This document shows, piece after piece, positions 39,475 through 57,608 of a DNA stretch of 58,039 bases (position 1 is its first letter; every line of letters begins with the position of its first letter). The stretch spans positions 1 through 58,039 of the forward strand of contig JAKLDR010000017.1 of NCBI GenBank assembly GCA_022703445.1, in the 5' to 3' direction. The notes beneath the pieces were generated by a model. That model was given only the letters and a program-made list of their open reading frames with translations. It was not told the DNA's origin and did no database searches. The stretch is from Planctomycetota bacterium. GTDB lineage: Bacteria; Planctomycetota; SZUA-567; JAKLDR01. The position numbers and the translations under genes are program-made.

Positions 39475-39480
39475 ACGGCA

Positions 39481-39573
39481 GGCTGGAGACTGGAGGCCGT
39501 AGGCTGTAGGAACAACAAGAGCTTGCTGCCCGCCGACCTCCAGCCTCCGGTCTCCAGCCTACAGTCTACAGTC
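39481..39573. repeat. Heptamer-phased inverted repeat between convergent genes
   Basis: The left arm is four 7-bp words (GGCTGGA, GACTGGA, GGCCGTA, GGCTGTA; 39481-39508) followed by GGAAC. The right arm is five words (39539-39573), which on the other strand read GACTGTA, GACTGTA, GGCTGGA, GACCGGA, GGCTGGA. The TAG stop of the minus-strand TPR gene (39568-39566) is formed inside the right arm. Confidence 0.8.
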
Positions 39574-40306
39574 TGGCCTTCCCCCTCAGTCGTTCCGCCC
39601 GCTCGCCGAGCGTCCGGCGGTAGCGCTCCACGGTGAGCGACGGCAGGGCCTTCTCGAGCACCGTGGCCGCCTCCTCCCGCCGCCCGGCGCGCTCCAGGGC
39701 ATCGGCGAGCAGGGTTAGCAGGTCGGCGCGGCCCTCCTCGATGAGCCCGGTATCGGTGGCGCGCGCGGCCGCGTCGCGGGCCAGGGCCCGCCGGGTGACC
39801 TCGGCCGACCGGTCGTAGTCGCCCTTCCTGAAGAGCAGCACGGCCAGGTAGCCGAGCGTCTCGAGGTTGTCCGGCCGGGCCCGGAGCTGCTCCTCGGCCA
39901 GCCTGACGGCCTCCGGCAGGTCGCCCCGCGCCGCGGCGGCCCGCGCCCGGTCGAGCTGGGCGGGCTCCGCGCCGGGCTGCGGCGGGGAGTCGTCGCCGTA
40001 CACGGCTTCGCCGAACCAGTTGCCCAGGACGCTCACACCGTAGAAGGCGATGCAGACGGCGGGCAGCCCCAGCACGATGATCACGAAGAGGATGACGTAG
40101 GACATTCCTCCTCCGGTGATCCGGAAGACCGCCGGACTGCTCAGGGCCAAGAGCAGCCCCGCGGCCAGGAGCATCCGCCAGGCGTTCCGGGGCTTCTCGA
40201 GCTCGAAGGTGGGCCGGCCGGACTCCTTGCGGGCGGCGACTATCCCCAGGAAGAGGGCCAGCGCGCAGAAGAGCCCCAGGAACACGTAGGAGACGGTGAC
40301 AACCAT
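39566..40306 (-). CDS. Membrane protein with TPR-type repeats
   Basis: 246 residues from the ATG at 40306, which has GGAGG upstream and a good promoter; longer open frames upstream run through the Y-shaped repeat and are rejected. Three membrane helices at ~5-24 (SYVFLGLFCALALFLGIVAA), ~43-60 (MLLAAGLLLALSSPAVF) and ~68-93 (MSYVILFVIIVLGLPAVCIAF). The C-terminal half has two to three TPR-like helix pairs (DLPEAVRLAEEQLRARPDNL, GRADLLTLLADALERAGRRE). It probably presents the TPRs in the cytoplasm as a docking site. Family not recognised. The stop codon falls inside a repeat arm, so the last residues may have been altered by the repeat. Confidence 0.78.
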   Translation of the reverse strand: MVVTVSYVFLGLFCALALFLGIVAARKESGRPTFELEKPRNAWRMLLAAGLLLALSSPAVFRITGGGMSYVILFVIIVLGLPAVCIAFYGVSVLGNWFGEAVYGDDSPPQPGAEPAQLDRARAAAARGDLPEAVRLAEEQLRARPDNLETLGYLAVLLFRKGDYDRSAEVTRRALARDAAARATDTGLIEEGRADLLTLLADALERAGRREEAATVLEKALPSLTVERYRRTLGERAERLRGKARL

Positions 40307-40357: not shown

Positions 40358-40387
40358 GTCTGCGCGCTTCCGCGGGGCCTGCGGCTG

Positions 40388-40659
40388 AGTGCTCCAATTC
40401 AGGAATCTGTGCGGGGTTGGTTGCGCCCGGCGGGCCGAGATCAAGGAAGGCCGACGAGCCGTATCCGAGAGTGATACGGCGAGGAGGCCTGACGCCGAGT
40501 TCGGCCCGCCCGGCGCAACCCGCAGGGCCGGGCAGCCGGGGTGCGGCGCTGCGTTGCTCGTCGTCGCCGTGTCCTCTCGAACACGGCTTCCTCCTCGCGC
40601 CTTGCGCGGCACCCCGGCTGCCTCGGCCAACCCCGCACGGATTTCTGAATTGGAGCACT
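40388..40659. repeat. 272-bp Y-shaped inverted-repeat element (candidate structured RNA or non-autonomous mobile element)
   Basis: The ends are 33-bp inverted repeats (40388-40420 and 40627-40659) matching at 31 of 33 positions; both exceptions would be G-U pairs in a plus-strand RNA. Inside are two hairpin arms. Arm 1 (40421-40518): TTGCGCC pairs with GGCGCAA, GGCGGGCCGA with TCGGCCCGCC, and the tip GCCGTATC/GATACGGC closes the loop CGAGAGT. Arm 2 (~40526-40626): GGCAGCCGGGGTGC pairs with its complement, and the tip GCCGTGT/ACACGGC closes loop CCTCTCGA. The loops are complementary (CGAGAG with CTCTCG). The right end overlaps the stop codon of the radical SAM gene. No target-site duplication is visible. 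A 90-codon plus-strand frame covers it exactly but looks incidental. Confidence 0.85.
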
Positions 40660-41659
40660 AAGGCCCGTAGTACTCCGCCGGCCGAAGTTCCGCGTAAGCG
40701 CCGGTGGCGAAAAGGGCCTTGCGGACCTCCAGGCACAGGTCGCACTTGCCGGCGTAGCCGCGTTCGGGGGACCGCCAACCGTGCCGCTCTCGGGCCAGCT
40801 CGACCAGTGTCCAGGGGCCCGAGCCGGCCAGGGCCGAGGCGATCGGGTGGGTCTCCGGCCCGATCTGCGGATGGAGATCGTCGAGCCCGGCCACCGCGAT
40901 GCCCGCGCAGCCGGTGAAGAGGTTGCCGTGCAGGTCGATGTGGAAGTGGGTGGTGCGCGCGAGCTCATGGGCGCAGGGCTCTCCGCGGAAGTCCTCCGCC
41001 GGGCAGAGCTCGAAGCCCGCTCGGAGCGCCTCGACCGCCCGGCCGCCGAGGTGCAGCGGGAAGAGCTCCAGCGCCGCGGAGATGTCCCCGGGCCGGCCGA
41101 TGAACTCCAGGAACTCCTCGAGCGTGTGCCGGCCGTCGCCGGGCATGCGCCCCAGCGTCCGGTAGAGGTGCGGCAGGTAGACGAAGGCCCCCTCGGCGCC
41201 GAGCACCTCGCGGGCGGCCTCAACGCAGTTCCGGGTGTTCCGAAAGGGGATGAACTCGCTGTGGTACATAGAGGCGCTGATGAGGACGCATGAGAGTCCC
41301 GCCTCGCGCAGCTGCTCCATCCCGGCGCGCGCCGCCGCCGGAGTCGTGCACCACTGAGCGTTGGTCTCCAGATAGGAGAGCGCCACGCCCGTCCGGCGGG
41401 CCAGGCGGACCACGTCGAGGAGCAGTTCGAAGCGCAGCGTGGCCTCGCCACCGGCCAGGTGCAGCGAGTCGAAGGCCGGCTCCCGGGCGAGCGCCGCGAA
41501 GGCCCGCTCAGCCGTTTCCAGGGAGATCCAGTCGTCCGGGCGCCGCGGCGAGCAGCGGTAGATGCAGTGCCGGCACTCGTTGGTGCAGCGGTAGGTCAGC
41601 ATCAGCCCGCCGGAGACGAGCGGAGGGACCGCGAAGCCTTGCGTTCGACCGGGGCTCAC
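40658..41659 (-). CDS. Radical SAM protein with extra C-terminal cysteines
   Basis: 333 residues from GTG at 41659, with GAGGG upstream. The 4Fe-4S/SAM motif CxxxCxxC is C25-C29-C32 (CTNECRHC), with a further Cys at 36, and a GGE-type motif follows (LHLAGGEATLRF). Later cysteines (FTGCAGIAVAG, GKCDLCLEV, FELCPAEDF, GEPCAHEL) could bind an auxiliary cluster, as in SPASM/twitch enzymes, but I cannot confirm the full set. SAM radical chemistry is certain from the motif; the substrate is unknown. The stop codon is made by the first bases of the Y-shaped element, so the C-terminus may have been shortened or replaced by it. tldD-tldE, which mature peptides elsewhere, lie nearby. Confidence 0.85.
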   Translation of the reverse strand: MSPGRTQGFAVPPLVSGGLMLTYRCTNECRHCIYRCSPRRPDDWISLETAERAFAALAREPAFDSLHLAGGEATLRFELLLDVVRLARRTGVALSYLETNAQWCTTPAAARAGMEQLREAGLSCVLISASMYHSEFIPFRNTRNCVEAAREVLGAEGAFVYLPHLYRTLGRMPGDGRHTLEEFLEFIGRPGDISAALELFPLHLGGRAVEALRAGFELCPAEDFRGEPCAHELARTTHFHIDLHGNLFTGCAGIAVAGLDDLHPQIGPETHPIASALAGSGPWTLVELARERHGWRSPERGYAGKCDLCLEVRKALFATGAYAELRPAEYYGP

Positions 41660-45023: not shown

Positions 45024-45112
45024 GGGCTTTGGGCTTTGGGCTTTCGGCTTTCGGCTTTGGGCTTTGGGAGCGGCAGTAGTGCTCAGAGCCCAAAGTCCAA
45101 GGCCCAAAGCCC
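45024..45112. repeat. Heptamer-phased inverted repeat
   Basis: Left arm 45024-45065 is six exact 7-bp words: GGGCTTT three times, CGGCTTT twice, then GGGCTTT. Right arm 45085-45112 is four words, which on the other strand read GGGCTTT, GGGCCTT, GGACTTT, GGGCTCT. It ends 8 bases from the stop of the DUF1638 gene and lies upstream of the acyl-CoA dehydrogenase promoter. The same words recur at 57410. Confidence 0.88.
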
Positions 45113-53574: not shown

Positions 53575-53602
53575 TTGACGGTGGCCGCCCAAGTGCTACA
53601 AT
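53575..53602 (+). promoter_or_regulatory. Strong predicted promoter of gap
   Basis: TTGACG (53575-53580), 16-base spacer, TACAAT (53597-53602). The predicted leader is ~75 bases and ends in the ribosome site GAGGGAGG before the ATG at 53685. Among the best matches to the housekeeping consensus in the window. Confidence 0.75.
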
Positions 53603-53684
53603 TCACGCTCGATGGAAACATCCCGGCCGCGAGATTTGTATCCGGCCGGCCACCGGAATCACCGTTAGAGAGGGAGGCAGTTCC

Positions 53685-57409: not shown

Positions 57410-57608
57410 CGGCTATCGGCTTTGGGCTTTGGGCTTTGGGCTTTGGGAACAACGATACGAATCGAACCACAGAGTACGACTTCGGTTTCCTGGCTTCCGT
57501 TTCTCAGGACCTTGCTCGTTGCTGTCCTATGAGTCCTCTGTGTACTCTGTGGCGAGTCAGCGTTCTGTTGTTTCTGTTCCGATAGCCGAAAGCCGATAGC
57601 CGAATGCC
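57410..57608. repeat. Composite heptamer inverted repeat with nested repeat, between convergent genes
   Basis: The left arm (57410-57444) is five 7-bp words, CGGCTAT, CGGCTTT, then GGGCTTT three times, followed by GGGAAC. The right arm starts GTTCC and has four words (57581-57608) which on the other strand read GGCATTC, GGCTATC, GGCTTTC, GGCTATC. Nested inside is a second inverted repeat, CCACAGAGTAC (57467-57477) and GTACTCTGTGG (57542-57552). The gap 57399-57613 holds nothing else. Confidence 0.85.

Follow-up and report, generated by a model that had tools for sequence, protein, structure and literature searches.

Background

RUP of Streptococcus pneumoniae is a MITE of 107 bp mobilised by IS630-Spn1. 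It is gene-less and intergenic, with IS630-like terminal inverted repeats (TIRs) and a TA target, and the description available presents it without arms (PMC2229807). ERIC, NEMIS/Correia and Nezha are short palindromes beside genes with strong RNA folds (PMC3733652, PMC2229807); their fold is one stem formed from the ends (PMC2229807), and the portions available of these accounts describe no cassette common to unrelated TIRs. GTAG and CGTC REPs and REP dimers (Di Nocera 2013) form inverted hairpin pairs, some of them inside long palindromes, with ends that supply TAG stop codons (PMC3733652). According to the sections available of the same source, REPs measure 20-40 bp and carry an unpaired tetranucleotide tag, GTAG REPs go together with RAYTs, and CGTC REPs combine the CGTC tag with a stem of 8-9 bp starting with A-T pairs, a loop of 4-5 and a CCA tail (PMC3733652). 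The intergenic CIR repeats of Caulobacter, about 110 bp long with GANTC sites and belonging to alpha-proteobacteria, have been proposed to yield an RNA with two arms and a linker, and no outer TIR stem is mentioned in the text available (PMC2229807). ISY100 duplicates TA, and in the part of the report available three of its 39 insertions were flanked by TA at one end but by A alone at the opposite end (PMC2170065).

The family presented here resembles RUP in gene content, location, TIRs and TA target, but its members are mainly 165 or 275 bp long, contain one or two conserved hairpin arms, occur in several phyla and use two target classes. It has inner arms and a cassette common to unrelated TIRs, unlike ERIC, NEMIS/Correia and Nezha, an outer stem, unlike CIR, and DDE-type TIRs, unlike REPs. 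Ends and target classes are like those of IS630-type (DDE_3) and IS5-type (DUF4096) insertion sequences (ISs), but these encode a transposase and the present elements do not. The reading we prefer, with a probability of roughly 0.7, is that the element described below is a copy of a MITE-like family of palindromic, gene-less insertions, likely moved in trans by a DDE transposase recognising the ends, and that its arms are common to elements with unrelated ends.

A Y-shaped element behind a radical SAM gene

The window, that is the whole stretch of 58,039 nucleotides that was analysed, comes from a Planctomycetota bacterium (contig JAKLDR010000017.1). At 40388-40659 it contains a 272-bp stretch without a gene of its own that folds into a Y. 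The original prediction had described inverted 33-bp ends, and comparison of the ends reproduced them: after reverse complementation 31 of 33 nt are identical, and the two differences (G/A at position 16, T/C at position 21) are both G-U on the plus strand. The element is also the longest inverted repeat of the window within 600 bp, with 50-nt arms including an imperfect extension; the next longest has 32. In the predicted fold an outer stem of 31 pairs is made by the left and right TIRs (40388-40418 and 40629-40659, both listed on the plus strand). It encloses two branches: arm 1, a 102-nt hairpin in minus orientation (40419-40520), and arm 2, a 103-nt hairpin in plus orientation (40526-40628), joined by an unpaired linker (40521-40525). 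Minimum free energies were -113.7 for DNA and -205.3 for RNA, with z values of -12.35 and -15.64, and no dinucleotide shuffle was as low (0/200 for DNA, 0/200 for RNA).

The arms had been regarded as diverged inverted copies of each other, and this is what the profile comparison gave, since one profile matches arm 1 at 40441-40499 on the minus strand and arm 2 at 40547-40605 on the plus strand. The core of arm 2 reads GCGTTGCTCGTCGTC, tip stem, TTCCTCCTCGCGCCTTGC. The two loops of this copy are complementary over 6 nt, as had been seen, but the suggested kissing interaction is not conserved: in 26 elements the longest complement averaged 2.12, versus 1.86 with shuffled partners (68 of 1000 as high), and kissing loops are thus not a feature of the family. 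The original statement that no named family fits still holds for the sources searched; an Rfam scan of the window gave no match at the gathering threshold, and literature searches found no paper naming this family.

The gene for a radical SAM protein (PF04055; 40658-41659, minus strand) runs into the element, whose right end together with a flanking A makes the TAG stop codon of this gene (40658-40660, minus strand). Next downstream on the same strand is a gene for a TPR protein (39566-40306), likely starting at the ATG at 40304-40306, 81 bp from the element. On the plus strand the element is flanked by TGA on the left (40386-40388, overlapping its first base) and by TAA on the right (40659-40661). 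Both flanks are TNA-like, but they are unequal, and a clean target duplication is absent at this copy.

Copies in the same genome and in other bacteria

The genome to which the window belongs (G000) comprises 6.0 Mb in 314 contigs and is 81% complete. A blastn search for further copies, in which 40 of 106 candidates were scored, gave 40 matches in it, and in some cases two matches represent the two strands of one element. The search profile R1 describes sequence only, because RNAalifold found no pair on the first arm alignment, in which tips of different length were out of register; its training arms include arms from G000, G031 and G047. With a profile of 39 arms, at least 48 arm matches were obtained in the genome, a lower bound from 150 scored of 4697 candidates. 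Merging of matches within 300 bp left about 28 places, at 20 of which both arms exceeded the threshold. Two places at contig ends (C49, C249) share their flank and could represent a single element.

At least four end types were found over the arms in this genome: type A, to which the window copy belongs (AGTGCTCC), type B (AGCAGCCCGTTGAA), type C (AGAACCCATCCC) and type D (AGAGTGCGTCCG). Type A is also present as several half elements. At one further place (L033 1501-1527; G000:C112:73562-73588) a bare palindrome of 27 bp consists of two type A ends only and is flanked by TGA and TAA, identical to the flanks of the window copy. TIRs, multiple dispersed copies and the absence of a transposase gene, which define MITEs, were all found, and there is good support for assigning the elements to a MITE-like family whose members contain one or two conserved hairpin arms.

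Outside this genome the distribution is wide. Profile matches at E 1e-5 or better are present in 41 of 392 Planctomycetota genomes, the own genome included, and are patchy over many families. An exact-pattern scan of 84,980 species genomes yielded at least 112 stretches in named genomes; among the matches listed, the record titles name Acidobacteria, Myxococcales/Polyangiaceae, Gamma-, Beta- and Alphaproteobacteria, Omnitrophota, Gemmatimonadetes, Liptonbacteria and Planctomycetota, the titles being those of mostly draft bins and shown for 80 of the 112 stretches. Bounding inverted repeats were present for members of each of these seven phylum-level groups, not at every locus. Dokdonella immobilis is a carrier that is in culture. 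Viral contigs gave no exact-pattern match in two scans. Several similar elements of about 165 bp (L185, L186, L204, L238, L240) occur in a bin titled Klebsiella pneumoniae (ZE-13nov19-135), which was discounted as evidence for this species because the title is probably wrong or the bin mixed. In G392 many contigs begin about 100-150 bp from an element end. Membership in this family explains long palindromes seen at stop codons of draft genomes.

Insertion sites

Two genomes of one genus, G210 and G047, provide an empty site. A 173-bp element is present in G210 where G047 has GGGCGAGTGACGCTCC, and the arrangement GGGCGAG-TGA-element-TGA-GGCTCC corresponds to a clean gain with a 3-bp duplication of TGA. 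The duplicated TGA ends an open frame in G210 (RILADEYFSLSNRDGIWAWGE before the stop). Insertion with duplication is seen at this one site, which belongs to a relative of the window copy, and ten elements with equal TNA flanks agree with it. A copy in G176 has another inserted into its internal CTAG (L115). Members of the family are thus insertions.

Targets were considered over 83 of 125 elements with defined bounds. TA-type targets were found for 41, of which 31 are CTAG, equal TNA flanks for ten and unequal TNA flanks for three, one of these being the window copy with TGA and TAA; the other 29 fall into no assignable class. TNA is the target of the IS1031 group.

Elements are frequently located at gene ends. 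In 64 of the 125 elements, those that are clean, 33 of 70 inward open reading frames nearby, chosen by GC3 rather than taken from annotations, stop inside the element end, and where both neighbours could be placed (51 elements) these are codirectional in 28 cases, convergent in 17 and divergent in six. Element ends therefore often supply the stop codon of a neighbour, the radical SAM gene of the window being an instance.

Size classes and arms

Lengths of the 125 bounded elements are concentrated in two classes, 29 measuring 155-179 bp and 37 measuring 270-284 bp, together 66 of 125; the remaining 59 include nested, truncated and wrongly bounded ones. The modes at about 165 and 275 bp look as if two TIRs enclosed one or two arms, at 2x31 + 103 and 2x31 + 2x103 nt plus a linker; this sum is arithmetic, and its arm size was taken solely from the long class. 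When 41 clean elements of two-arm length were folded, two branches were predicted in 32, one in seven and three in two, and in 27 of the 32 two-branch elements both branches are 98-110 nt long. The outer stem is kept in all 41 of them and in 23 of 23 elements of one-arm length, in part by construction, because clean elements had been chosen for matching ends. As to the order of the arms in the 41 elements, 18 have swapped triplets, three have like triplets, 15 contain one recognisable arm and five show other arrangements. Recognised arm pairs are thus usually in inverted order.

That pairing in the arms is retained while the sequence differs, as claimed originally from the single copy, was borne out by helix and covariation tests on the tip stems. 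For 122 distinct tips from 168 arms the mean helix comprised 6.25 pairs, compared with 3.67 when the halves were taken from different arms; the maximum mean for such mixed halves was 3.96 in 200 repeats. Covariation was analysed in 31 of the 35 arms with a tip length of 22, the four omitted arms repeating tips already included. In this alignment 82.8% of the cells were paired, versus 62.2% after shuffling and 14.0 to 44.6% when the strands were slid. The covariation score was 0.551 versus 0.238 in shuffles and at most 0.168 in slid alignments, and 43 cells were changed on both sides versus 18.2 in shuffles. For each of these three measures none of 500 shuffles was as high, and all three can be inflated by kinship of the sequences. 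Pairs with a double change (5 versus 4.1 in shuffles, 152 of 500 as high) and further pair types (10 versus 9.8, 291 of 500 as high) showed no excess. We conclude that the tip stems of the arms covary.

The most conserved part of an arm is the mostly unpaired sequence flanking the tip. In arm alignment A2 this conservation is largely by construction, because most rows came from the exact-pattern scan; the conserved flank is also found in arms of the own genome and of G031, which the exact pattern did not find.

An arm cassette combined with different ends

Comparison of types B and C in the own genome revealed unequal conservation of the parts. The two types agree in 70-73 of 79-80 positions of arm 2, in 67-70 of 99 of arm 1 and in only 17-21 of 29-30 of the TIRs. 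An insert of about 51 nt occupies the same arm site in elements of type B (e.g. L022) and type C (L021). The sharing of arms, the insert at the same site and the existence of two target classes together indicate that arms have been exchanged between unrelated ends. The insert is a further palindromic repeat (CCCTTCGACTCGC..GCTCAGGGCCCCGAG..), and several elements of types B and C in the own genome have it at this site in arm 2 (L014, L016, L021-L024 and L028).

The usual view of bacterial MITEs is that they are passive remnants, each of a single parent IS. One structured cassette of near-constant size between ends of unrelated transposases, and across phyla, suggests that the interior of a MITE can be under selection. 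Tentatively, and with less confidence than we have in the family assignment itself, the arm of about 103 nt might be a unit of its own, consisting of the covarying tip stem and the conserved unpaired motif (CGTYGCTCGTCGTC / CCTCCTCGYKCCTYG, or with the triplets swapped), which, in seven phyla, would have been taken up between ends belonging to two or more unrelated transposase families. It might have been selected for making very short elements transposable, through a fold that joins the ends and a docking site, supplied in modules of the same size.

Candidate transposases

Transposases of two kinds were searched as possible partners. Matches to DUF4096 (PF13340), which we take to mark IS5-type transposases, were found in three of 26 genomes. 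The IS in G031 is about 0.9 kb long; its right end (GAGCCTATCTCAGTAGGCC) nearly equals the ends of the elements with TNA targets in the same genome (GAGCCTATCTCACTAGGC, with TAA flanks), its left end is degenerate, and TTA is read on both sides. One end of the PF13340 IS in G029 matches an element from Omnitrophota (L229) at 18 of 20 positions; the elements of G029 itself have a different end, GGCTCTGTCTGG, at six of eight places looked at.

IS630-type candidates were compared by their ends beyond the first four bases. Those of the IS630 in G392 match elements of G332, which belong to a family with CTAG targets, at 15 of 20 and 14 of 20 positions, a likeness reached by 0 and 5 of 2000 shuffles. 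For the IS630 of the own genome (L334), comparison with 102 element ends gave the window type as the best match of both ends, at 13 of 20 positions each (shuffle p 0.004 and 0.008). Shuffle p was < 0.01 for five of 34 IS630 ends tested, two each from G000 and G392 and one from G006; the latter genome is without a profile match and its IS630 end also reached 13 of 20 (p 0.0095), so that the match in the own genome is by itself only moderate. No DDE_3 IS other than L334 (826-2139; G000:C174) was found in the own genome; the transposase of L334 is read in two overlapping frames, which may reflect a frameshift or programmed frameshifting. G176 contains seven IS630 copies with bounds of 1210 bp at CTAG, six of which (L336-L341) directly adjoin a 166-bp element and have the terminal CTAG in common with it. 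At these junctions one mobile element has used the end of the other as its target, and the IS630 ends are unlike those of the G176 elements after TAGTG.

The window copy has TNA-like flanks (TGA/TAA), yet the closest IS end found is that of the IS630 in its own genome. It was not assigned to IS630-derived elements because a duplication of TA, with CTAG favoured, is not seen there, nor to IS5-derived elements, since a PF13340 search of the own genome, at 81% completeness, gave no match and thus no IS of this kind. For the family, movement by transposases of IS5 type and IS630 type seems probable from the likeness of the ends and from the targets. The presence of DDE_3 (PF13358) does not track the elements: 14 of 41 positive genomes contain it versus 12 of 38 others, where others means genomes with no profile match listed, a few of which (G011, G058) have weak blastn matches. 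IS630 is present in seven of 24 named genomes.

No autonomous IS with ends of types A to D was found in the own genome (81% complete). In G000, G047 (= G394), G392 and G393, nothing longer than a short element is enclosed by opposed type B TIRs; a spacing of about 0.97 kb occurs once (G000:C243), where a site with two mismatches adjoins a complete element. No transposase was bounded by element ends in 20 inspected regions of G176, and the three IS630 elements checked contain no arm. An apparent autonomous pair of 1.5 kb in G176 (L136) was dismissed since it encloses host genes, as do two sites with arms 0.7-1.5 kb apart (L278, L056).

If such a transposase acts in trans, it would excise the element at its ends, and the element would be joined at TNA or TA/CTAG, often within a stop codon. 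Insertion there would be tolerated, the element end supplying a new stop. Retention of the arms may be due to folding of the short DNA, in single-stranded or supercoiled form, which would bring both ends together, and the conserved unpaired motif may bind some protein; of these steps the last two are the least sure. The two length classes, the empty site within a genus and an IS with a matching end in the same genome make the idea directly testable.

Alternative explanations

Strong folds at gene ends could also be expected of RNA, and a structured RNA is an alternative that we regard as unlikely, though not negligibly so: the transcribed Y would protect, cut or terminate mRNAs, and selection would preserve this function. 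NEMIS and ERIC, which are MITEs, act on mRNA in this manner according to the account available (PMC2229807), and the location of the elements behind genes, the very stable fold of the window copy and the covariation of the tip stems would all be in line with it. The bias to 3' ends, however, also follows from insertion at stop codons. The G-U nature of both mismatches on the plus strand had been taken as an argument for RNA, and the G-U pairs themselves are correct for the window copy. For the family the argument does not hold on the sense strand: in the 36 of 64 elements that could be used, outer-stem mismatches in the orientation of the abutting gene were A-C in 51 cases and G-U in 31, the opposite of a rescue at the RNA level. 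Selection on an RNA fold of the sense strand is thus not apparent. The A-C excess weakly favours the antisense strand, in agreement with the RNA antisense to the flanking genes that had been considered possible, but it is too small to carry a conclusion.

Part of the original prediction concerned mobility, and the elements do behave as hairpin-rich mobile elements; the version of a BIME-like pair of REPs had to be given up. As a REP/BIME-like element the Y would travel in single-stranded form, as the hairpin substrate of a Y1 tyrosine transposase (RAYT). In favour of this are the inverted order of the hairpin pairs and the TAG ends supplying stops, a property also described for GTAG REPs in the section available (PMC3733652). 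G176, assembled in two contigs, 90% complete and with about 80 near-identical copies, gave no match to the Y1 profile PF01797, and this profile is not associated with the elements (28 of 41 positive versus 24 of 39 other genomes; two matches in G000); the reading was rejected on these grounds and is highly improbable. The window element has paired ends and no unpaired GTAG, and with 272 bp it is several times longer than the 20-40 bp of REPs. Likewise, the stems of CGTC REPs were not recovered, the tip stems of the family starting mostly with C-G or G-C pairs and being followed by CTCCTC. Moreover, the G210/G047 site shows symmetric TIRs with a target duplication, which to our knowledge are not expected of RAYT products. 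The same site argues against a stem-loop system of the IS1272/IS1182 type, in which palindromes are targets replaced by the IS without target duplication. IS1272 replaces stem-loops according to the part available of its description (PMC5678879), and a bare short palindrome with the same ends exists (L033, 27 bp), but at the one empty site, located at a gene end, the element was simply gained and 3 bp were duplicated, leaving this explanation very little room. Insertion of a MITE-like element by a DDE transposase is preferred.

Other repeats in the window

A one-mismatch match to the TIR at 53592-53604 lies just upstream of a GAPDH-like start (TTGACG..TACAAT). It looks like a promoter -10 and is considered a chance match rather than an element end. 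Arrays of short units of the GGGCTTT/CGGCTTT and CTGGAGGC types are located at 39475-39565, 45024-45112 and 57410-57602; they form imperfect inverted repeats and represent another repeat class.
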